Part shown: positions 19,657-56,282 of the stretch, one piece after another | Layout of the letters: each line of letters starts with the position of its first letter | How positions within the stretch are numbered: the first letter of the stretch is position 1 | Assembly (NCBI GenBank): GCA_037178675.1 | Contig: JAYMGJ010000391.1 | Coordinates: 1-64,000, forward strand | Length of the DNA: 64,000 bases | From: Scleroderma bovista | Lineage: Eukaryota > Basidiomycota > Agaricomycetes > Boletales > Sclerodermataceae | Direction of reading: 5' to 3' | Position numbers and translations under genes: made by a program | Notes under the pieces: model-generated | What the model was told of the DNA's origin: nothing | Database searches by the model: none | Seen by the model: only the letters and a program-made list of their open reading frames with translations

Positions 19657-19803
19657 CGTCGTACTTGCTTATGTGCTGGACGTTGGACACGTTGATGAAA
19701 GTTGGGTGAGATTTGAAGTCAATCACGCCATGTCTCACTAAGCGATACGATCGGTAATTATAGTGGTAAACCGAAGTGCGCCCACTTGTCGTGACTTTCA
19801 ACA

Positions 19804-22800
19804 ATGTCCAACAAGCCCGCCTTCCAGATCGTCACTGGTCTTGGTGACTTACCAACGCCAGAACCAGACTCACCATATCGACCCCGCAGGCCATACAGAC
19901 TTTCCACGCTATGTGCAACAGTCGAGAATCCAGGACAAAAAGACCAGTACGGATCATCCTCCGTGCCAATATACCAGACGGCCACATTCAAGGGCGTTGC
20001 TGGGGAATACGACTATTCGAGGAGCGGCAACCCCACCAGGAGTCACTTGGGTGTGTATGAGCAACATATTTACACCACTGCCCTTACCTCGCACAGAACA
20101 CCACATTGCTAAGATTTCTTCCGCTGTGCGTGCATTCGCAGTGTCATCGGGCATGGCTGCCTTAGACACCATCCTGCGACTGTTGAAGCCCTCGGATGCA
20201 GTTATCGCTGGCGACGACCTGTACGGCGGTACTAACCGACTTCTCGCATACCTGCGTGACCATGCCGGAATCATCGTGCATCATGTCGACACCACCAAAC
20301 CCGACACGTTGATTCCTCTGTTAAAACCGGAGAACAACATTGCGATGGTCCTCCTTGAATCTCCCACTAACCCCCTTCTCAAAATAGTAGACATCGCAAC
20401 CATTGCCAAAGAGGTCAAGGAACGTGTACCGGATGCGATTATCGTTGTAGATAATACGATGATGAGCCCATTCCTACAACGCCCCCTCGAACATGGTGTA
20501 GATATCGTGTACGACAGCGCGACCAAGTACCTTAGCGGTCATCATGATCTTATGGCCGGTGTTATCACCTGCAACAGGGATGACATTGCAAAAGTAAGTT
20601 GTACCCTCTAGGCTATAGTCTGCTCTGTGTGGTTTACGTTCTCTCTTTAGCAAATGGCGTTCATAATTAACGCTTCCGGGAACGCCCTTACCCCGTTCGA
20701 CTCCTTCCTGCTATTGCGAGGGACCAAGACACTTGCGGTCCGCATGTCCCAGCAATCTTCTACTTCCATGCTCGTCGCTCGTTACCTCCACTCCCTTGGA
20801 TTCCCTACCTTCTACCCTGGACTACCAGACCATCCCAACAGAGAGGTTCTTGAACGCATTTCAAGTGGCTACGGCGCTGTGCTCAGTTTCACCACCGGAA
20901 GCAAAGATATTAGTGAGCGTGTCGTCGCTGGCACGAGATTGTGGTCTGTCAGTGTCAGTTTTGGGTGTGTGAACTCACTGATCAGCATGCCTTGTGTAAT
21001 GTCGTAAGTGGCGCCATCCTTGATATTATTTGTACCTCTTATCATCCACTCTAGTCACGCATCTATTCCAGCTGCTACTCGCGCTGCTCGGGGCCTGCCG
21101 GAAGATCTGATTCGTCTCTGTGTCGGAATTGAAGATCCCACAGACCTCCTCGACGATCTTGAAAGGGCCCTTTTTGACGCGGGCGCCATTCGGAGGACTG
21201 GTTCCGGTCTTGTGCGTGTGCAAACATCAATAGGAGAGGCTGTCCAGAAACTTGCGGAAAAGGAAGCTGCAGGTGGTGATACTCCACCGCACCAAAGACA
21301 GTGGGTCGTATCGGCCCCTGGCAAGGTCATTCTGTTTGGCGAACATGCAGTCGTATATGGCATCGTAAGTCTTACTCGGCCTCTTCGGCCGTTGTATAAT
21401 CCACTGACCCTTTCCAAGCCCGCTTTGGCGGCATCACTGTCTTTGCGATGCTATGGCATCTCCACACCACGCTCAGACGATATCATTGGTGTTCACTTCC
21501 TCGATATTGATGTTGATCAGCCAGGGGGATTCAAATACGAATGGAATGTGTCAGAGTTGCCATGGGACTCTGTTCCTTCTAGTAAGCACCTCAAAATTTT
21601 CTGCATTGTTGTCTAATTGTTCTGGGTTACCTAGCCTCATTGCCGCAAGACGAGGGTGAAATTGCACTAGATATCCAGCTTCTTGACCTATTGACATCAC
21701 GATCTTTCCCTGCTAATTTGGATTCTCACGCACGCCAGGCGGGCTTGACATTTTTGTACTTGTACATGATTCTTGGAGTGCGTACAGGTCAAAGGTGGGT
21801 ACATCCATACCTGAGTTTACCCGGTCTAGTCGAAAGTCTTACTCATCACGCTACAGACCCGTACTCACTCTCACCGCTCGCGCCAACCTTCCGGTAGGCG
21901 CCGGCCTTGGATCGTCAGCATCCTTCTCGGTCTGCACTGCGACCGCATTATTACTTGTATTTGGGCAAATCCGCGTGCCACCACAGTCCTCGCCATCTTC
22001 GCCCATACCCCAAGAGGACTTCTCTTCGTCTTCTGCACAGAGTCCTTTGCCACCTACAAAACTCGTTGATACCCTGGCCCAGTCCACGAACAGGTATGCA
22101 TTCCTTGCAGAAAAAATATTGCACGGGACACCAAGTGGTGTCGACAACTCAGTTGCCGTCTTTGGTGGTGGCCTCCAATACACAAAAGACCTAGGTCAGG
22201 GCGGTGGAATGGAAGCCATCGAGGGATTCAAGGCCTTGCGGTTCCTGCTAACGGATACACGCGTACCAAGGAACACGCGTTCTCTTGTTGCGGGTGTTGC
22301 CGCACGTTTGGCAGAAGATCCTGACCGGGTGCGCGAACTTCTCCAGAAAATCCGAGGGGTTGTGGCCCGTGCGAAACAGGTACTTTGTGGGGAGAATGGA
22401 CAGGAACGGGAGGAACTTGCTGTGAGTACTCCGTGGATAGCCCCGATTATGTGCCAACTGGCTGATGGCGATTGCGTTAGGCCCTTATTGACGAGAACCA
22501 CCAACACCTCGCTGACCTCGGAGTTTCGCATCCCAGCTTGGAGGACGTGCGGACAGTGACTAGGACTCACGGGCTTGTGACGAAGCTAACCGGTGCTGGC
22601 GGCGGCGGCTGTGCCGTAACTCTGGTCCCAGAGGGTGAGGCTATCTTTGTCGTCCCATCAGTGCTCTGGAACTTATCTGTTCGGCAGACTTCCCCGAGTC
22701 ATCGCTTTCATCACTCGTCGCTAACCTCCACGACAAAGGGTATGTCCCGTACCTGACGCAAGTCGGAGGGCCTGGGCTTGGGATTCTCGCATGCCACGAT

Positions 22801-22962
22801 ACGGTTCTACTACCGATGACCCCTCCCGAGCCCGCCACTGGCAACGGTGAAGTTGGTGGTATCATGAATGAGCGTGGGTCACTGGCACCCTTGTTCGCTC
22901 AGAAGCCGAAGTCGGAACTAGGTCCTTGGATGGATACGTTAGGGCCTTGGGCGCATGTCTGA
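19804..22962 (+). CDS. Fused cystathionine beta-lyase - mevalonate kinase
   Basis: Nine exons (19804-20050, 20097-20593, 20651-21003, 21055-21364, 21419-21581, 21635-21794, 21857-22421, 22481-22634, 22688-22962) give one 907-residue frame. Residues 1 to ~404 are a PLP-dependent cystathionine beta-lyase (methionine synthesis): SGNPTR, SSGMAALD, AGDDLYGGT and the PLP lysine in SATKYLSGHHD. After a ~45-residue linker, residues ~449-907 are a complete GHMP-family mevalonate kinase (isoprenoid/sterol synthesis): APGKVILFGEHAVVYG, ARANLPVGAGLGSSAS, GTPSGVDNS (catalytic Asp) and TKLTGAGGGGCAVTL. Between 21004 and the kinase's first motif (about 21302) there is no stop in frame and no ATG in any frame, so a separate kinase start is hard to place. 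Both halves have their catalytic residues. Whether the product is cleaved is unknown. Confidence 0.85.
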
Positions 22963-23149: not shown

Positions 23150-25096
23150 TTATCATTTGCAGTTGACACCCTACGATGAGCATCTATTGCTCTCATGCTA
23201 TTAACTGGACAATGTCAATTAACTCTACTGGTAAATAAGGTCCCTTAAACAAGTCCGGGTATCGAATTAATAGTATGCCTAGATTTGAACACCCTGAATA
23301 CCAAATGTTCACTGAAATCACTAAAAACCCATATACTAGAAGTCAACTTCCTCCGCCAGATTCTACAAAATGAGTGGAATCAGAAGTCCTTTCTTGTGCG
23401 GCATGTTACAAAATCCGCACCATGTTCTTAGAAAAATCATACTAGGAGTGATATATGAGGCTATGATAACTTCAAGAGCGAGCAATGGACATACCCTCGG
23501 TTGTTGCATCCGTGCATCAAATTGAGCATCAAGACTTACTCCACACGCTGGAAGGCGGTGGGAGTTCTGCTTAAGTACTTTATTTATGCGCTCCCTAGGT
23601 GCACAGATGAGGATAAGAAATACTCGGTAAGAGAGCCCACTCACCCCATCTGAGTGCGTAACTCCTCCCAAGTTATTTGCTTCTTTTCTATGGATTAAAT
23701 GAGAGGGGCGTTCAGCAGCTTGGCGACTGTCGCACCAACGAGATTAAGAAAAATCTGCCGATGAATGGTGAGCAAGACTTCTTGAAATTTGAAAAAGAAA
23801 AAACCTTGGTAGCCGTAACCCCATTATCCATGTCATCGTACGCAAGCTGACCATCACCACAGGGTGACAACGAAATCTGGTTCAAGTTTGATTTCATATC
23901 AACAATAAGGTAAGAAGAAACCCACCGCACAAAAGCCGGATTCTTCTTTGACAGGCACTGGCATAGTACCACGGACCAGAGTGTCAACTGAGTGGTTAGG
24001 CAAAAGTTGACGTTCGACTTTGTCTTTCGATGACATTATCGAGCGAAACCACCTCACTGCCAAAATATGAGCTCATAATGTCACATTTATCGAGATACTT
24101 ACGAAGGTGAGGGACAGCTTGGAATAATCCTGACGTGTAACTCGGATCAAGCAACCACTGTACGTTCACTGTAATAGGTACTTACCTTTGGCCATGCGCC
24201 CAGGGCCACCGTTCCACTTTCGCGAGTATTTACGGTCACGACCCAAGTCTGGGTGGAAAATAATATGAATTCGGGACGTTGATATGAAGCTGCAAACCTA
24301 CCCAACATGGTCTCCGCATGACAGCAATCGAAGAAAGTCTACATGAATATATCAGCGACGGCCCACTCCTGCCAATGAATGCTGAGGGACTTACAAACAG
24401 TCGGACCTTCATGTTTTGCAGTGGCACGATCAACTCGTCGTGAAGGCACTGCTTCAGGTGTTAGATTATATACAGGAAACATACGGGACGGACATTATCT
24501 AATATCCATTTTCCATCGGTCGTAGCAATCCCTTTGAGAAGAGTGAGTAACCGCGTTTGAATGAATAACAATGTAAGAAGGGGTTTGAGACCCGTGCCCA
24601 GAATCTTTATGGAATTTTGCAGTAAAAGATATCAGAATACCTTCAATGCAAAAATCCTTTACTCTCACAATATAAGAAAAAATAGTCACCATCCGAAGCG
24701 TTGTCGACTAGGACTTGGATCTGCTGTAACTGAACAGCAAGGATAAACAGGGAATAGATCACACATCGCGAGTGGTGCAACTCACGATGTTGAACCTTGT
24801 TGGCCACAAGTAGTCCGGCACGCCCTTTACATCCTGCATTACGACGACATTTTGATAACCATACACTTCTGGGCGTGAAGGTCAGCTAGTGCCCTAACCA
24901 CCGACAAGTCATAATATCGAGCCTACCCATAAGGCAACCTCGAAGGTCCAGAGTATACCGGTGAGCCAACGGGAGTGGAGGTTGGTGGTCGAAACTTTGT
25001 ATGGAGATGAGAAGCGCGTACTTTGTCATTGTACTGATGGTATCATGCCTCCACGATGGGACTGCCATGGAAGACCCTTTTAAATGGAAGTGAAAT
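23150..25096. repeat. Segmental duplication, copy 1 (metacaspase-like region)
   Basis: About 1.95 kb nearly identical, in direct orientation, to 26157-28137. The match begins at TTTGCAGTTGACACCC, just past the mevalonate kinase 3' end, and stops at AATGGAAGTGAAAT near 25094, where the hAT-like sequence begins. Differences are scattered substitutions, small indels and a ~39-bp deletion in this copy near 24574. Confidence 0.9.
23336..25029 (-). pseudogene. Metacaspase-like gene, copy A (broken)
   Basis: Same exon order as the intact-looking copy at 26320-28073. N-terminus MTKYALLISIQSFDHQ..RGCLM; then VYGYQNVVVMQDVKG, VLVDNASDGDYFFLY, the His motif DSGHGSQ, the Cys motif FFDCCHAETM, SLSPCGDGQLAYDD, and a terminal exon NLAEEVDF ending at 23336. 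Relative to copy B, about 39 bp are missing near 24574. This removes the end of the exon after SGHGSQ together with its splice donor, so the frame runs into unrelated codons and stops. The catalytic Cys exon is still intact downstream, but a normal product looks impossible. Metacaspases are caspase-fold Arg/Lys-specific peptidases. Confidence 0.75.
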
Positions 25097-25800: not shown

Positions 25801-25841
25801 TGGCCTCACCGAATGTCATCATTTGCACGGTGAGTTTGAGG

Positions 25842-26131
25842 GACCAAGACACTCGCGGTCCGCATGTCCCAACAATCTTCTACTTCCATGCTCGTCGCTC
25901 GTTCCCTCCACTCCCTTGGATTCCATACCTTCTACCCCGGACTACCAGACCATCCCAACAGAGAGGTCCTTGAACGCATTTCAAGTGGCTACGGCGCTGT
26001 GCTCAGTTTCACCACCGGAAGCAAAGATATTATTGAGCGTGTCGTCGCTGGCACGAGATTGTGGTCTGTCAGCGTCAGTGTTGGGTGTGTGAACTCACTG
26101 GATCATCAGCATGCCTTGTGTAATGTCGTAA
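25842..26131 (+). pseudogene. Fragment of the cystathionine beta-lyase gene (duplicate of 20714-21007)
   Basis: About 290 bp that copy the end of exon 3 of the lyase-kinase gene, from GAGGGACCAAGACAC to the intron donor GTAAG. I count roughly nine substitutions plus a 4-bp insertion (CTGGATCATCAG against CTGATCAG) that shifts the frame. Several changes are non-synonymous (Tyr to Ser, Pro to His, Ser to Ile), as expected for an unselected relic. Nothing of the mevalonate kinase part is present; homology resumes directly with the metacaspase region 26 bp later. Confidence 0.9.
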
Positions 26132-26156
26132 GCTGGTCGCTGAAATCACTATTTTG

Positions 26157-28137
26157 CAGTTGACACCCTACGATGATCATCTATTGCTCTCATGCTATTA
26201 ACTAGGCAATGTCAATCGACTCTACTGGTACTTAAACGGGGTATCGAATTAATAGTATGCCTAGGTTTGAACACCCTGATCAAATGTTCACTGAAATTAC
26301 CAAAAAAAAATCCCATATACTAGAAGTCAACTTCCTCCGCCAGGTTCTACAATATGAGAGTGGAATCAAAACTCCTTTCTCGTGAGACATGTTACAAAAT
26401 CCGCACCATATTCTTAGAAAGATCATACTAGGAGTGATAAATGAGGTTTTGACAACTTCAAGAGTGAGCAATGGACATACCCTCGGCTGTTGCATCCGTG
26501 CATCATATTGGGCATCAAGACTCACTTCACACGCTGGAAGATAGTGGGAGTTCTGCTGAAGTACTTCACGTATGCGCTCCCTAGGTGCACAAATATGAGG
26601 GTAAGAAATACTCGGTAAGAGAGCCCACTCACCCCATCTGAGTGAGTAACTCCTCCCAAGTTATTTTCTTCTTTTCTATAGATTAGATGAGAGGGGCGTT
26701 CAGCAGCTTAGCGACTGTCGCACCAATGAGATCAAGAAAAATCTGCCAATGAATGGTGAGCAAGACTTCTTGAAATTTGAAAATGAAAAACCTTGGTAGC
26801 TGTAACCCCATTATTCACGTCATCGTACGCAAGCTGACCATCACCACAGGGTGACAACGAAATCTTGTTGTTTGATTTCATATCAACAATAAGGTGACAT
26901 AATGTAATGAAAAACCCACCGCACGAAAGCTGGATTCTTCTTTGACAGGGACTGGCATGTTACCAGGGACCAGAGTGTCGACTGAGTGGTTAGGCAAAAG
27001 TTGACGTTCGACTTTGTCTTTCGATGACATTATCGAGCGTTTGAACGACCTCACTGCCAAAACATGAGCTCATAATGTCACATTTATTGAGATACTTACG
27101 AAGGTGAGGGACAGATTTGAAGAATCCTGACGCGTGACTCGAATCAAGCAATCACCGGACGTCCACTGTAATAGGTACTTACCCTTGACCATGCGCCCAG
27201 GGCCACCGTTCCACTTTCGCGAGTATTTACGGTCACGACCCAAGTCTGGGTGAAATATAATATGAATTCGGGACGTTGATATGAAGCTGCAAACCTACCC
27301 AACATGGTCTCCGCATGACAGCAGTCGAAGAAAGCCTACATGAATATATCAGCGACCGGCCCTCTCCTACTAATGAATGCTGAGGGACTTACAAATAGTC
27401 GGACGTTCAAGTTTTGCAGTGGCACAATCAACTCGTCGTGAAGACACTGCTTCAAGTGTTAGATCACATACAGGAAACACATGAGACGGACATTATCTAT
27501 TATCCATTTTCCATCAGTCGTAGCAATTTCTTTGAGAAGAGTGAGTAACCGCGTCTGAACAAATAATACGAATGTACTAACGTTCGTCCGCGCCATCCCA
27601 CTCGTTGTCATCCGAAGAAGGGATTTGGGATCCGTGCCCAGAATCTTTATGGAATTTTACAGCAAATGATATCAGAACATTTTCAATGCAAAAATCCTTC
27701 ACTCTTACAATATATGAAAAAATGATCACCATCCGAAGCGTTGTCAACTAGGACTCGGATCTGCTGTAACTGGGCAGCAACGATAAATGGGGAATAGATC
27801 ACATCGCGAGTGGTGCAACTCACGATGTTGGACCTTGTTGGGCACAAGTAGCCTGGCACGCCCTGTACATCTTGCATTACGACGACATTCTTTTCCTGAT
27901 AACTATACACTTCTGGGCGTGAAGGTCAGCTAGTGCCCTAGCCACCGACAAGTCATAATATCGAGCCTACCCATAAGGCAACCTCGAAGGTCCAAAGTAT
28001 ACCGGTGAGCCAACGGGAGTGGAAGTTGGTGGTCGAAATTTTGTATGGAGATGAGAAGCGCGTACTTTGTCATTGTACTGATGGCACCAGGCCCCTACGA
28101 TGGGACTGTGGAAGGCCCTTTAAATGGGAGTGAAATA
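26157..28137. repeat. Segmental duplication, copy 2 (metacaspase-like region)
   Basis: Direct-orientation counterpart of 23150-25096. Homology ends at AATGGGAGTGAAAT near 28137, and what follows (GCGGTGCTTGCTG) differs from copy 1, which there joins the hAT-like array. Together with the lyase fragment just upstream, this shows that a block reaching from the lyase gene through the metacaspase gene was copied in tandem. Confidence 0.9.
26320..28073 (-). CDS. Metacaspase-like protein, copy B (apparently intact)
   Basis: Exons joined by eye: MTKYALLISIQNFDHQ..RGCLM; VYSYQEKNVVVMQDVQG; VLVDNASDGDHFFIY; SGHGSQIPSSDDNEWDGADE (catalytic His); EIATTDGKWIIDN; CLHDELIVPLQNLNVRLF; FFDCCHAETML (catalytic Cys); DLGRDRKYSRKWNGGPGRM; a Lys-rich linker exon; SLSPCGDGQLAYDD (p10 part); IFLDLI joined to EKKKITWEELLTQM; ERIREVLQQNSHYLPACE; and a last exon NLAEEVDF, stop at 26320. 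An apparent in-frame TAA after NAPLI is avoided by an intron (GTGCGA..CTATAG) that also exists in copy A. Caspase-fold (C14) peptidase, probably Arg/Lys-specific; Agaricomycetes commonly carry several. No prodomain repeats were seen. Some donors are weak (GTTTTT), so expression is not certain. Confidence 0.65.
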
Positions 28138-51890: not shown

Positions 51891-51912
51891 TGCTGGGGTC
51901 CCTCTCCTGCGG

Positions 51913-51920
51913 TATATAAA
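51913..51920 (+). promoter_or_regulatory. TATA box of CipC-like gene B
   Basis: TATATAAA 69 bp before the ATG, in the shared context CTCTCCTGCGG-TATA and followed by GACTGCCGAACGCCCCATC, identical to gene C. Confidence 0.75.
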
Positions 51921-51981
51921 CCCCTTGTATGGACTGCCGAACGCCCCATCACACGCACATCTTACCTACTATCCGATAAAC

Positions 51982-52521
51982 ATGGGTTGGTTCAGCGACG
52001 ACTCTGACCAGGCTCGGGCCTACGATGAAGTCACGGTAATGCACCTTCAACTGTATGTCACGTCAGGTCCTAATGGTTCATGATCTAGAATGCACCACAC
52101 AAGGCTCGGCTTTCGCATGAGCTCATCGCTGGTGCAGCTGCGTACGAGGTAATTCATCACGCTCGTGACTCATGGGTGTTGCAGTGATGATGACCGTGTG
52201 TTGCAGGCGGCCAAGGCGTACGAGGAACATAGGGAACGCAACGGTCAACCTGACAACCATGCCAAGGCCAAGGAGATCGTGTATGACTGATACTTAAGAG
52301 TCTTCGTCTCCGATGTTGATCATGCTACAGAGCGGGTCTCGCTGGGGCTTTCGTTGACCGTATGGTTGAAACAAAAGGCCTGGACTTCGTCGACGCGCAG
52401 AGGGCAAAACACGCAGGTAATGGGTTTCCTCGGCATCACTTGCTATTAGTTGTGCTAAAACATGGTTATTATCATAGCCAAAGAACATTATGGAGAATCC
52501 CTTGCAAATGAGTACAACTAG
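51982..52521 (+). CDS. CipC-like small protein (DUF3759), copy B
   Basis: About 105 residues from five exons: MGWFSDDSDQARAYDEVT; NAPHKARLSHELIAGAAAYE; AAKAYEEHRERNGQPDNH and KAKEIV; AGLAGAFVDRMVETKGLDF and VDAQRAKHA; AKEHYGESLANEYN, TAG at 52521. Intron positions match copies A and C exactly. No frame defects. Family members are induced by stress or antibiotics and on wood or litter in other fungi, but their biochemical role is not known. Gene and 3' flank form one unit of a tandem duplication with copy C. Confidence 0.88.
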
Positions 52522-53822
52522 GACACATCCAACGGGAAGGCCTGTATAATTGTACACTAGTGAAGATAACATTCGAGAGATAGTACAGACAAAGATACAC
52601 ACATGGTAGTTTTGTAGAGAGTATTGATCAGACCATCAAAGGTGTGTTTGCGCCAGCGAACCATGAATTTTCCCGTCAGATGCGCTGTCAAGGGGAGTTT
52701 CAAAGGGAATGGGCGGTGTCCCATGAGTTCCTGAGGGATATTGATAGATAAAGCTGTCGTGAACCCACTTACCTGTTTCTGAGCTTCAAACCTCAAACTT
52801 GTCTCCAGTTATTTACTCTGGTCAAAGAATGGATACTCACCAATAAAGCCAAGCGTTGCATTTAGAGCTGACCTGGCTGAAATCCCTCAAGCTTAATCCA
52901 ACAGTATCGAAAGATAGCCGTGGGCCGCGAAATCCATATACACCGCAAGTTAACCCATTTCTGGAGTATACGACCCTACAGACACTGCAGAGGTACGCCA
53001 GCGATGCCATAAAACCCTGGAACCTCGTTCTGCGGGTCGTCCTAGATGGCCTATTATACAGAACAGCTATAGTGGTTGTCGATAACAGTATCTGTAGGAG
53101 GCTAAGGCTTATGAAGACACGTTCGCCAGATGGGCCATCGACTCTGGGCTCAGGGCTGAATATGAATATATTTGTAGGCTCGAGAGCGTGTCGCAACGAC
53201 TGCTAACCTCGGTATGAAAACACTGCAGCGCCGGGTGATTAGGCCTTTCGTTGATCGTATGCTTGTCAAAAGTGAGTTCGACGGATCATGGAAGTTGCTT
53301 ATCTAAATGAACATTTTAGCTGTGTGGTCAACGGGTGTTGCTCCATTTGGTTGCTATTCGTGAGGTATCGGAGTGTACAGTATCCGGGTATGCATGTAAC
53401 CGCAGGTCTGTGCTTCGACCAGAAGGCTGGGTGAGTACTACAGCGCTATACTTGAACTAGCGAGGCGATCCTAGCCTTCCAGAGGCACAGCCAGGGAATA
53501 CCCAGTGACCTTGAGGTCTGACAACGATGCATCGATGAGCACCCATGGTAACCCAATGCAAGTGCTAGCTGACACCATTCAAGCCGGGGATCTCCTCGCG
53601 ACGTCACTGCATGTGGGTCAAGTGGAGTGATCATTTAGGGTCCGGGCGGCCATAGAACAACAGAACAACCCTGGAAGTTGTTGTCCTGTCAGCCCTATAC
53701 ATAGCAGCAACAGTACTCCTACAGAGGTCCGTGTATACGATCCGTCACGAGTCACCTGTGGCCGAATTCATGCAAGTTCACCCTCCAGTTTCTTCTGATC
53801 CGGGTTCATCCGAAGGACTAGA
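52522..53822. repeat. 3' flank of CipC B: duplicated downstream of CipC C (54449-56282)
   Basis: Ordered matches between the flanks include AACCATGAAT, GCTGTCAAGGGG, TGGTCAAAGAATGGATAC, GGCCGCGAAATCC, CATTTCTGGAGTATACG, CCTCGTTCTGCGGGTCGTC, TGTGGTCAACGGGTGTTGC, AGAACAACAGAACAACCCTGG and GGGTTCATCCGAAGGAC. The second copy lacks about 270 bp present here (near 53060-53320) and contains two inserted elements. Confidence 0.85.
53090..53280 (+). pseudogene. Degenerate CipC-like exon remnants
   Basis: GAGGCTAAGGCTTATGAAGA at about 53098 resembles the exon encoding AAKAYEEH, with an AG acceptor before it. CTTTCGTTGATCGTATGCTT near 53250 nearly equals the exon encoding FVDRMVETK, with a 3-bp loss and a GTGAGT donor soon after. 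Spacing fits exons 3 and 4 of the family. Exons 1 and 2 are not recognisable and no continuous frame exists. Probably a fourth, dead array member. Confidence 0.55.
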
Positions 53823-53846
53823 TATGGAGGCAACGCCTGCGGTATG

Positions 53847-53854
53847 TATATAAG
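53847..53854 (+). promoter_or_regulatory. TATA box of CipC-like gene C
   Basis: TATATAAG 69 bp before the ATG, same spacing as gene B, followed by the shared GACTGCCGAACGCCCCATC leader. Confidence 0.7.
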
Positions 53855-53915
53855 CCCCTAGTATGGACTGCCGAACGCCCCATCACACGCACATCTCACC
53901 TACTATCCTATAAAC

Positions 53916-54448
53916 ATGGGGATTTTCAGCCATGACTCTAAGGAGGCTCAAGCTTACGATCAAGTCACGGTAATGCACCTTCAACTGCGCTTCACGTCAG
54001 GTACCAATGGTTTCGTGATCTAGAACTCACCACACAAGGCTCAACTTTCGCATGAGCTCATCGCTGCAGCAGCTTCGTACGAGGTAATTCCTCACACTCA
54101 CAGGTGTTGCAGTGATAATAACCATATGTTGCAGGCGTCCAAGGCGTACCAGGATCATCAGAAACGCCACGGTAAACCTGCCAATCATTCCAAGGCCAAG
54201 GAGCTCCTGTATGGCTGATGCTTCGAGTCCTTGACTCCAATATTGATAATGCTACAGAGCGGCTGCTGGTGGGGCTTTCATTGACCGTATCGTTGAAACC
54301 AAAGGCCTGGACGCCATCGACAAACAGAAGGCAAAGCATGCAGGTAACGGGTCTCCTCGGCATTGCTTACTAGTGATGCTAAAACATAGTTATTATCATA
54401 GCCAAAGAACGTGCACACACTGCACTTGCTGAGTCTGGAAAAGATTAA
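53916..54448 (+). CDS. CipC-like small protein (DUF3759), copy C
   Basis: Five exons at the same positions as A and B: MGIFSHDSKEAQAYDQVT; NSPHKAQLSHELIAAAASYE; ASKAYQDHQKRHGKPANH and SKAKELL; AAAAGGAFIDRIVETKGLDA and IDKQKAKHA; AKERAHTALAESGKD, TAA at 54448. Intact frame. It differs from B at many residues although introns and promoter are very similar, suggesting change in the protein under retained regulation. Function unknown; cytosolic by absence of a signal peptide. Confidence 0.87.
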
Positions 54449-54548
54449 CTGACACATCCGACGTGAAGGCTTGTACGCACCTATGTAATCAAACTGTACA
54501 GTAGCGGAGATAACAGTATTAATCAGTCCCTGTGAACCATGAATTATA

Positions 54549-54885
54549 CTATCACTTACACCGTTGTCGGCACCCCCACCCATTCGGCAGTCACAGAAAT
54601 GTCACCATATGTCACTGGTGTCACACAGATTCCGTGGTGAGAATTGTGACTCCACTTCGGCAGTTGTGACAACTTGGGTGACAAATGAGCGTGACTGCCG
54701 TTCAACCCAGCATTTTTTGCGATCTCAACAACTACTGCACGTATATCGATGCTTCAAGCTATCAGAGTATCCGAGTGGTATAAAATAAATTTTATACTAG
54801 TCAATGTTGTGTGTAGTTGAGCGGTGGGTGGTAAAAAACCAAAGTGCCGAATGGGTGGGGGTGCCGACAACGGTGTAAGTGATAG
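54549..54885. mobile_element. 337-bp MITE with perfect 41-bp terminal inverted repeats and TA target duplication
   Basis: Left end CTATCACTTACACCGTTGTC.. (54549-54589) is the exact reverse complement of 54845-54885. TA flanks both sides (54547-54548 and 54886-54887). The interior is GTCAC/GTGAC-rich without coding capacity. The homologous flank of CipC B (AACCATGAATTTTCCC, about 52665) lacks the element, giving an empty-site allele. TA duplication fits a Tc1/mariner-type non-autonomous element. Confidence 0.88.
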
Positions 54886-55003
54886 TATGGTCAGACTTGG
54901 CTGTGCTGTCAAGGGGTGTCCCTCAATCTCACATAAGTTCCTGAGGATATCAATACTTACCCAGTGGCTCTAAGCTTAATTCAAGTTTCAAAATTGTGTC
55001 CAG

Positions 55004-55574
55004 GGGGGCCCGCAACCACGACCATGGTCGGGTTTCCCACGCTATGATAGCTGGGCAAGGTAGTGCACGAACGATAAAAAGCACACAGAACACCACTGGC
55101 CCCCCCTAGAACGATTATTACGAGTCATTAAGTTGACCAAAACACACGAACAATGCCAGACTGGCAAGAACAACCACACTCAGCGACCACGTACTCACGA
55201 ATTTTTCTACCCAATGTAGACATCCTGAACATACCAAAGACCAACCAAAGATGAGTTGAAATGTGAACCAATCACACAAGCAACACGATTACTCCATGTG
55301 ACAGTCCACTGTGATGCTGTCCCCTCTTGCGAGATGTTCGCCTCCCTTTTCCCAACCTGAGGTTTTAGTGGGTATAACGCCTACCAGGCGCCCTTCAACA
55401 GGTTTACCAGTAGGCTCACGGAGTCCCACATACCCCCATCCTTGACGGGAAGTGCATAAGAGCATTTTTCCTCGGAACGAAGCCCAACTGGGTTTTCGAT
55501 CTAGTGTATTATGTAGAGCTTGACTTGTCAGTGGCTACATAATGATATCACTTGTCCAAAAAAAAAAAGAAATA
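55004..55574 (+). mobile_element. 571-bp poly(A)-tailed retroposon with 8-bp target duplication
   Basis: Flanked by GTGTCCAG at 54996-55003 and 55575-55582. It ends in an 11-A run (55558-55568) followed by GAAATA. The duplicated flank of CipC B reads CTTGTCTCCAGTTATTTAC at about 52796-52815 without the insert, so the site is known. No reverse transcriptase is present, so it would depend on a LINE or be a processed transcript copy. I could not identify Pol III boxes or a parent gene with confidence. Confidence 0.7.
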
Positions 55575-56282
55575 GTGTCCAGTCATTTACCCTGGTCAAA
55601 GAATGGATACATGACCACACAAAGCCAAACAAACGTTGTATATCCCGTAGGCCGCGAAATCCCCATTTCTGGAGTATACGGCCCTACAGACAGTGCCAGC
55701 GATGTCATAGAGACCATGCAACCTCGTTCTGCGGGTCGTCTTAGATCCCGAACAGCTATGGTGGTTTTGGTGGGATGTCAATAATCAATTGGCTGTGTGG
55801 TCAACGGGTGTTGCTCCATTTGGTTGGTGCTCGTGAGACGCTGCTAATATATTGAACGTCTGAACGTATCGGGGTGTCACACAGTATCCGGCTATGCATG
55901 TAACCGCAGGTCTGTGCTTCGACCAGTGGGTGGTGAGTGCTAGTACTTACTACCAATCGAGGTGACACAGCCAGGGAATGCCCGGTGACCTTGAGGTCTG
56001 ACAACGACTCTGCCCAATCGATAACCCAATGCAAGAGTGCCAGCTGACACCACTCAAGCAGGGCAACTCCTTGCAACGTCTCTGCACGTGGGTGACTAAT
56101 AAGTGGAGTGGGGCGACGATAGAACAACAGAACAACCCTGGTTGCTGTCCTGTCAGCACTACAGTCTACAGAGGTCCGTCCTATACGCTCCATAATTCAC
56201 CTGTGGCCGAACTCATACGAGTTCTCCCTCCAGCCCTAGAGGCGCCAATCTAGATCTGGGTTCATCCGAAGGACGCCATTCG

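Follow-up and report, generated by a model that had tools for sequence, protein, structure and literature searches.

A cystathionine beta-lyase-mevalonate kinase fusion gene in Scleroderma bovista and its relatives across Basidiomycota

Organization of the locus

The plus strand of positions 19804-22962 of a 64,000-nucleotide stretch of the Scleroderma bovista genome (hereafter the window, meaning the whole stretch that was analysed) carries a single gene in which nine exons, separated by eight GT-AG introns of 46-62 bases (435 bases in total), yield one stop-free frame for a protein of 907 residues and 97 kDa; its splicing was deduced from the sequence and from relatives, i.e. this is a predicted gene model. 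Along the protein, a complete cystathionine beta-lyase is followed by a linker of ~35-45 residues and then by a complete mevalonate kinase. An earlier note on this DNA had proposed just such a spliced lyase-kinase frame of 907 residues, and the proposal was confirmed by the nine exons, by all eight introns being of the GT-AG type, and by both halves passing the cut-offs of their families (see below).

All nine exons lie on the plus strand. Exon 1 (19804-20050) contributes the start codon and the lyase N-terminus up to YSRSGNPTRSHL, exon 2 (20097-20593) the lyase core with the PLP lysine K226 at 20525-20527, and exon 3 (20651-21003) the C-terminal half of the lyase. The lyase had previously been taken to end with this exon at 21003; the exon does end there, but the last ~46 lyase residues (to ~21190) are encoded by exon 4 (21055-21364), which also holds the linker (residues ~412-446, 21191-21295) and, from 21311, the kinase motif SAPGKVILFGEH. 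The kinase continues through exons 5 (21419-21581) and 6 (21635-21794) into exon 7 (21857-22421), where S597 of GLGSSAS is found at 21915, E662 of AEK at 22110 and D673 of GVDN at 22143, then into exon 8 (22481-22634) with TGAGGGGC, and ends with its C-terminus and the stop codon in exon 9 (22688-22962).

Pfam places a Cys_Met_Meta_PP domain at residues 41-405 and the N- and C-terminal GHMP kinase domains at 580-613 and 762-816, respectively. The lyase half scores 519.3 bits against TIGR01329 (equivalog cut-off 487.5) and the kinase half 208.9 bits against TIGR00549 (cut-off 163.05). The PLP lysine K226 and the active-site residues Y71, R73, Y125, D201 and R386 are present in the lyase, as are the catalytic Lys, Ser, Glu and Asp (K456, S597, E662 and D673) in the kinase. 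By sequence, the nearest solved structures are 1ibj for the lyase half and 2r3v and 1kvk for the kinase half, presumably Arabidopsis cystathionine beta-lyase and human and rat mevalonate kinase, respectively. The match to 1ibj (349 bits, residues 32-404) aligns the PLP lysine and the YxRSGNPTR motif, and those to 2r3v and 1kvk (212 and 208 bits) align the catalytic Lys, Ser, Glu and Asp; unlike the fusion, however, all three are stand-alone proteins, and the Ser/Pro-rich loop seen here at ~618-645 is shorter in the two kinases. As the longest chain among the structure matches listed has 478 residues, none of those structures holds both halves.

Downstream of the gene, a broken partial copy of lyase exon 3 occupies 25838-26140 on the plus strand (95% identical to 20718-21014), with two stop codons inside the match. 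The sequence directly after it, 26153-28136, corresponds at 90% to the 3' flank of the fusion gene (23156-25096), with the kinase exons missing, and the whole of 25838-28136 looks like a tandem duplication from which these exons were lost.

Elsewhere in the window there are direct repeats at 51912-54410 and 53316-56161 (84% over 577 bases and 76% over 339 bases) and an exact 44-base inverted repeat (54546-54589 and 54845-54888). The pattern GRVGRVGRVGR occurs 27 times in the window against 12.3 expected, 17 of them in the first 14 kb, and no link of this excess to the fusion gene was seen.

Published accounts of the fusion

The same gene was reached from its lyase side in a 2012 paper on STR3, of which Wilson is reportedly the first author. 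As far as its accessible text goes, that paper (PMC3468542) describes STR3 with a C-terminal mevalonate kinase in every member of the Basidiomycota that was examined apart from Postia placenta, the basidiomycetes being without a stand-alone kinase; in contrast, a 909-residue Postia fusion (P0093) was recovered here, so the published exception is probably an annotation fault. Liu et al. (PMC3342255), likewise in the accessible portion, reported in 2012 the same lyase-kinase order under the name metC-MVK in 12 basidiomycetes, averaging ~886 residues and constituting the only mevalonate kinase homologue of each genome, with Laccaria bicolor as the exception. Laccaria had no entry among the matches listed here. 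The fusion has thus been known in print since 2012 (PMC3342255, PMC3468542, both as available in part), and the Scleroderma bovista gene differs in no matter of substance from the metC-MVK described by Liu et al., being that of another species. The accessible text of the same paper also mentions a conserved 16-residue kinase insertion in 7 of the 12 species; relative to animal kinase, the Scleroderma bovista kinase has an extra Ser/Pro-rich loop. The same fusion, of 918 residues, was found in Lignosus (PMC4129116, partial text).

Not all papers take up the fusion: the accessible parts of two Xanthophyllomyces papers (PMC8420053, PMC4393869) name mevalonate kinase with no mention of it, and those of two reviews of amino-acid and methionine enzymes (PMC11506715, PMC4302243) leave it unmentioned. 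In the open-licence literature, to which most subscription journals do not belong, neither enzymology nor genetics of the fusion was found.

Distribution and transcript evidence

The earlier note left the question of how far the fusion extends, and the answer is all three basidiomycete subphyla. The best 120 of 742 matches in a full-length protein search are fusions without exception, of 835-952 residues and with query coverage of 92-100%, the best of those listed being a Scleroderma citrinum protein of 92% identity. A profile built from six distant fragments gave 3934 matches. Fusions from rusts, smuts, Malassezia, Cryptococcus and Dacrymycetes are among the 120 listed, the genera represented including Ustilago, Sporisorium, Tilletia, Malassezia, Puccinia, Melampsora, Phakopsora, Rhodotorula, Sporobolomyces, Microbotryum, Mixia, Cryptococcus, Kwoniella, Dacryopinax, Calocera, Auricularia and Tulasnella. 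With these genera assigned to their usual subphyla, the sequence matches put the fusion in Pucciniomycotina, Ustilaginomycotina and Agaricomycotina, i.e. in rusts, smuts and mushrooms. Among the best 120 of 7203 matches in a kinase-only search, all named stand-alone kinases are non-basidiomycete, coming from one animal, from ascomycete yeasts, and from Mucoromycota, zoopagomycete and chytrid-like fungi; two listed entries under basidiomycete names, P0162 and P0206, have no lyase domain and are both truncated.

Seven of the 120 listed fusion records come from contigs just 2875-3084 bases long, in which 109-339 bases fall outside the reading frame. Since the fusion gene needs 435 bases for its introns, these short contigs look like spliced mRNA, and a transcriptome unigene of Pleurocybella is likewise a fusion (PMC3720577, partial text).

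Could two neighbouring genes simply have been joined by a faulty gene model or assembly? The partial tandem copy ~3 kb downstream might invite this thought, but the same architecture recurs in 230 records and the junction lies within a single exon of the model. An artefact, practically inconceivable on these grounds, is refuted by the 120 fusions among 120 listed matches together with the profile-search fusions in rusts, smuts and Malassezia.

Two peculiarities of individual species may be recorded. Two different fusions, of 896 (P0005) and 835 (P0006) residues, are named as Pisolithus marmoratus, which may reflect duplication, allelic variation or the presence of another assembly. Two Malassezia proteins (P0283, 1249 residues; P0287, 1210 residues) exceed the 830-863 residues of the three other named ones listed, owing either to an extra region or to a joined gene model.

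Conservation and predicted structure of the two halves

Conservation was assessed in proteins of at least 780 residues, a set comprising 230 of the 343 collected (120 from the full-length search, seven from the kinase-only search and 103 from the profile search). All 230 fusions have the PLP lysine K226 together with K456 and H463 of the kinase, and 229 have S597, E662 and D673, the remaining one having a gap. All 15 checked residues are kept in 217; nine of the other 13 show gaps only, and four carry substitutions (P0094, P0240, P0261, which has gaps too, and P0285). A sixteenth position, kinase T711, is variable (Ser in 122, Thr in 107 and Asp in one of the 230). Seven rust and five Malassezia proteins, inspected individually, have the 15 residues intact except for P0285, with Met at position 71. 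A strict search for kinase motif I missed four of the 120 listed entries (P0005, P0006, P0091 and P0094), K456 nevertheless being aligned in 230 of 230.

Identity to the window protein was computed separately for each part in eight relatives. In the six distant ones the lyase is 64-79% identical, the kinase 44-52% and the linker 8-30%. The lower conservation of the kinase could be taken to mean that one half has decayed and persists solely as a structural passenger. The near-universal retention of K226, K456 and H463 (230/230) and of S597, E662 and D673 (229/230), as well as a genome in which no other mevalonate kinase was found, speak against decay, which we therefore regard as very improbable.

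AlphaFold was run on the Scleroderma citrinum fusion (P0001) with 52 alignment rows, and gave a mean pLDDT of 80.1 and a pTM of 0.55. The pLDDT exceeds 70 over the greater part of residues 81-340 and of the kinase, lyase residues 1-80 and 341-370 are weak (<65), linker residues 426-439 fall below 50, and values are also low at the loop ~623-635 and at 854-876. This single-chain prediction, made for a monomer and thus with tetramers and dimers outside its scope, agrees with two domains whose relative placement is not fixed.

The junction and the linker

The lyase and kinase meet inside one exon of the gene model, exon 4, and from 21002 to 21344 no ATG occurs in any frame of the plus strand; the stretch from the lyase to kinase motif I had earlier been said to lack ATG, and so it does. 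Of all stretches of this length (343 bases) on the plus strand of the window, sampled in steps of 10, 0.3% are free of ATG. The in-frame Met codons nearest to the junction stand at 20987 and 20999 (residues 361 and 365, in the lyase) and at 21766 (residue 568), the latter within the kinase and past motif I. In this gene, therefore, no ATG is available between the two halves from which a separate kinase could start. A hidden splice or start, or a sequencing error, as the note had envisaged for the junction, is unlikely, given that the junction lies in one exon and that the Scleroderma citrinum linker has the same length as that of Scleroderma bovista.

Across the 230 fusions, the segment between residue 405 and motif I is 36 to 165 residues long (median 51), and 82 of them have a Met there, for which reason the absence of ATG was rejected as a conserved trait of the junction. 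The same 82 relatives lend some credit to the idea of a post-translational split of the product, or of a second, kinase-encoding mRNA that starts in the lyase region. A split product would also agree with the low confidence with which the linker is predicted, as a flexible stretch would be, and with the linker being the fastest-changing part of the protein in the eight relatives (8-83% identity vs 64-97% for the lyase). On the other hand, no protease-readable motif common across clades was seen in the 14 linkers inspected, the Scleroderma bovista gene has no in-frame Met between residues 365 and 568, and the transcript-like contigs cover both halves. On balance, separate products seem improbable.

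Other kinases and lyases in the genome

Does the fusion gene serve alone? In a six-frame search of the 850 contigs of the assembly, which may be incomplete, with the kinase half as query, no second mevalonate kinase was found, all six matches being exons of the fusion gene. The suggestion in the note that one gene supplies both enzymes is supported in that the kinase-half search of the genome matched this gene only. GHMP-N matches occur at five places, one of them being the fusion gene, and the others were each considered as a second mevalonate kinase. The candidate on C760 was rejected as homoserine kinase (209.6 bits, above cut-off), that on C238 as diphosphomevalonate decarboxylase (263.1 bits, above cut-off), and that on C593 as phosphomevalonate kinase (partial, 123.0 bits, below cut-off). 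A 100-residue piece on C126, taken alone, has mevalonate kinase as its best model, at 31.6 bits against a cut-off of 163.05; neighbouring frames, however, carry a galactose-binding signature above the Pfam cut-off, and three of the four frames have gal_kin as their best NCBIfam match, the fourth being without a match. The signature and gal_kin together identify C126 as galactokinase, not mevalonate kinase.

The lyase-half search of the genome likewise revealed no second lyase. It matched the fusion gene, the partial copy within the window, and PLP loci on C218 (L010) and C105 (L011) at 37% identity. The two loci are 98.4% identical to each other and represent either a recent duplication or haplotypes left uncollapsed. 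Of the pair, only the C218 frame was typed, and it has cystathionine gamma-synthase as its best model, below cut-off.

Origin and retention of the fusion

The kinase halves were compared in a tree of 76 sequences, 75 of the 343 collected plus the window, comprising 43 fused kinases (the window included), 28 stand-alone kinases chosen from the best-scoring kinase-only matches, and five fragments; the tree is unrooted, with a midpoint used for drawing. One branch, with support of 100/98, divides the 28 stand-alone kinases from the 43 fused ones and the five fragments, and the groups on the fused side correspond to rusts, other Pucciniomycotina, Ustilaginomycotina and Agaricomycotina. Because the fragments sit among fused kinases, the fused label taken alone needs five changes on the tree; three of the five (P0144, P0145 and P0148) carry lyase-tail residues. 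A single origin before the rust, smut and mushroom groups split is compatible with this tree and its simplest reading, not proof of it, since the tree is unrooted, covers the kinase half and draws its stand-alone members from best-scoring matches. Adjacent ascomycete genes were rejected as a source of the fusion, as the two genes are not clustered there according to the accessible text of PMC3468542.

Two metagenomic kinases (P0147 and P0169) start with Met, have no lyase tail and are nested in the fused side near Jaminaea; gene fission or a truncated reading frame could account for them.

What, then, is the fusion, and why has it been kept? The gene model, the intact catalytic residues, the breadth of the family and the clustering of the kinase halves are matters of observation, as are a genome in which no second kinase was found and a gene with no start codon for the kinase. 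With a probability that we put at roughly 85%, metC-MVK of Basidiomycota is a genuine bifunctional enzyme with independent domains, of one ancient origin and subsequently locked in. The fusion would be made as one polypeptide, in which the N-terminal PLP fold presumably converts cystathionine to homocysteine and the C-terminal GHMP fold phosphorylates mevalonate in an ATP-dependent manner, the two probably acting independently on a flexible tether. It would date from a single event no later than the last ancestor shared by the three subphyla of basidiomycetes; the kinase half would have lost its own promoter and start, with no second kinase gene left, and the fusion may have become locked in because of these two circumstances.

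A link between methionine and sterol synthesis?

A rival to this picture, plausible but doubtful, is that the fusion was selected for coupling methionine and SAM supply to sterol synthesis through one SREBP-controlled promoter; on the same reading, homocysteine and SAM for the C-24 methylation of sterols would rise with isoprenoid flux. The note, too, had proposed that sterol flux may be tied to methionine demand. This thought finds some support in Ganoderma lingzhi, where the 'mevalonate kinase' g3941 is an SREBP target in DAP-seq and is upregulated upon SREBP overexpression (PMC9810662, partial text). All four Ganoderma entries among the best 120 matches listed (P0059, P0063, P0071 and P0115) are fusions, so g3941 should presumably be one as well, in which case the lyase would be under sterol control. 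The persistence of the fusion in all three subphyla also suits coupling, yet it can equally stem from lock-in; moreover, the accessible text of PMC9810662 does not contain the word 'methionine' and does not state that g3941 is a fusion. In the literature searched, as far as its text was available, no link between SREBP, the fusion and methionine was found.

Tests of promoter motifs gave coupling no support either. The SREBP patterns were taken from the text of PMC9810662, and palindromic patterns were counted twice in the upstream scan. Neither the Ganoderma lingzhi SREBP motif nor a strict human SRE site is present in the 500 bases upstream of the fusion gene. A pattern relaxed by one base finds a single SRE-like TCACGCCAT there, at 19723, against 0.05 expected; in the whole window, the relaxed pattern occurs six times against 5.8 expected, i.e. 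with no excess. Within 1.5 kb before the match it was found at one of six other sterol or isoprenoid loci and at neither of two control loci, the one positive being diphosphomevalonate decarboxylase, with the pattern ~1.25 kb away on the minus strand. With these and with Cbf1 and CYS3 binding patterns, no convincing promoter motif for SREBP or for the sulfur regulators was detected upstream of the fusion gene. That SREBP, through one promoter, sets both lyase and kinase throughout Basidiomycota, and that prenyl-diphosphate feedback on the kinase domain may even reach the lyase, seems rather unlikely.

Implications

As a rule, fused genes combine steps of a single pathway. The Scleroderma bovista gene itself belongs, as an unremarkable member, to a gene family already in print, but a fusion across unrelated pathways that has been kept since near the base of the phylum is an unusual case. 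If functional, it would allow a clear-cut test of what preserves such fusions, selection or lock-in, and overexpression of a native mushroom 'mevalonate kinase' in sterol engineering would then alter methionine synthesis too.
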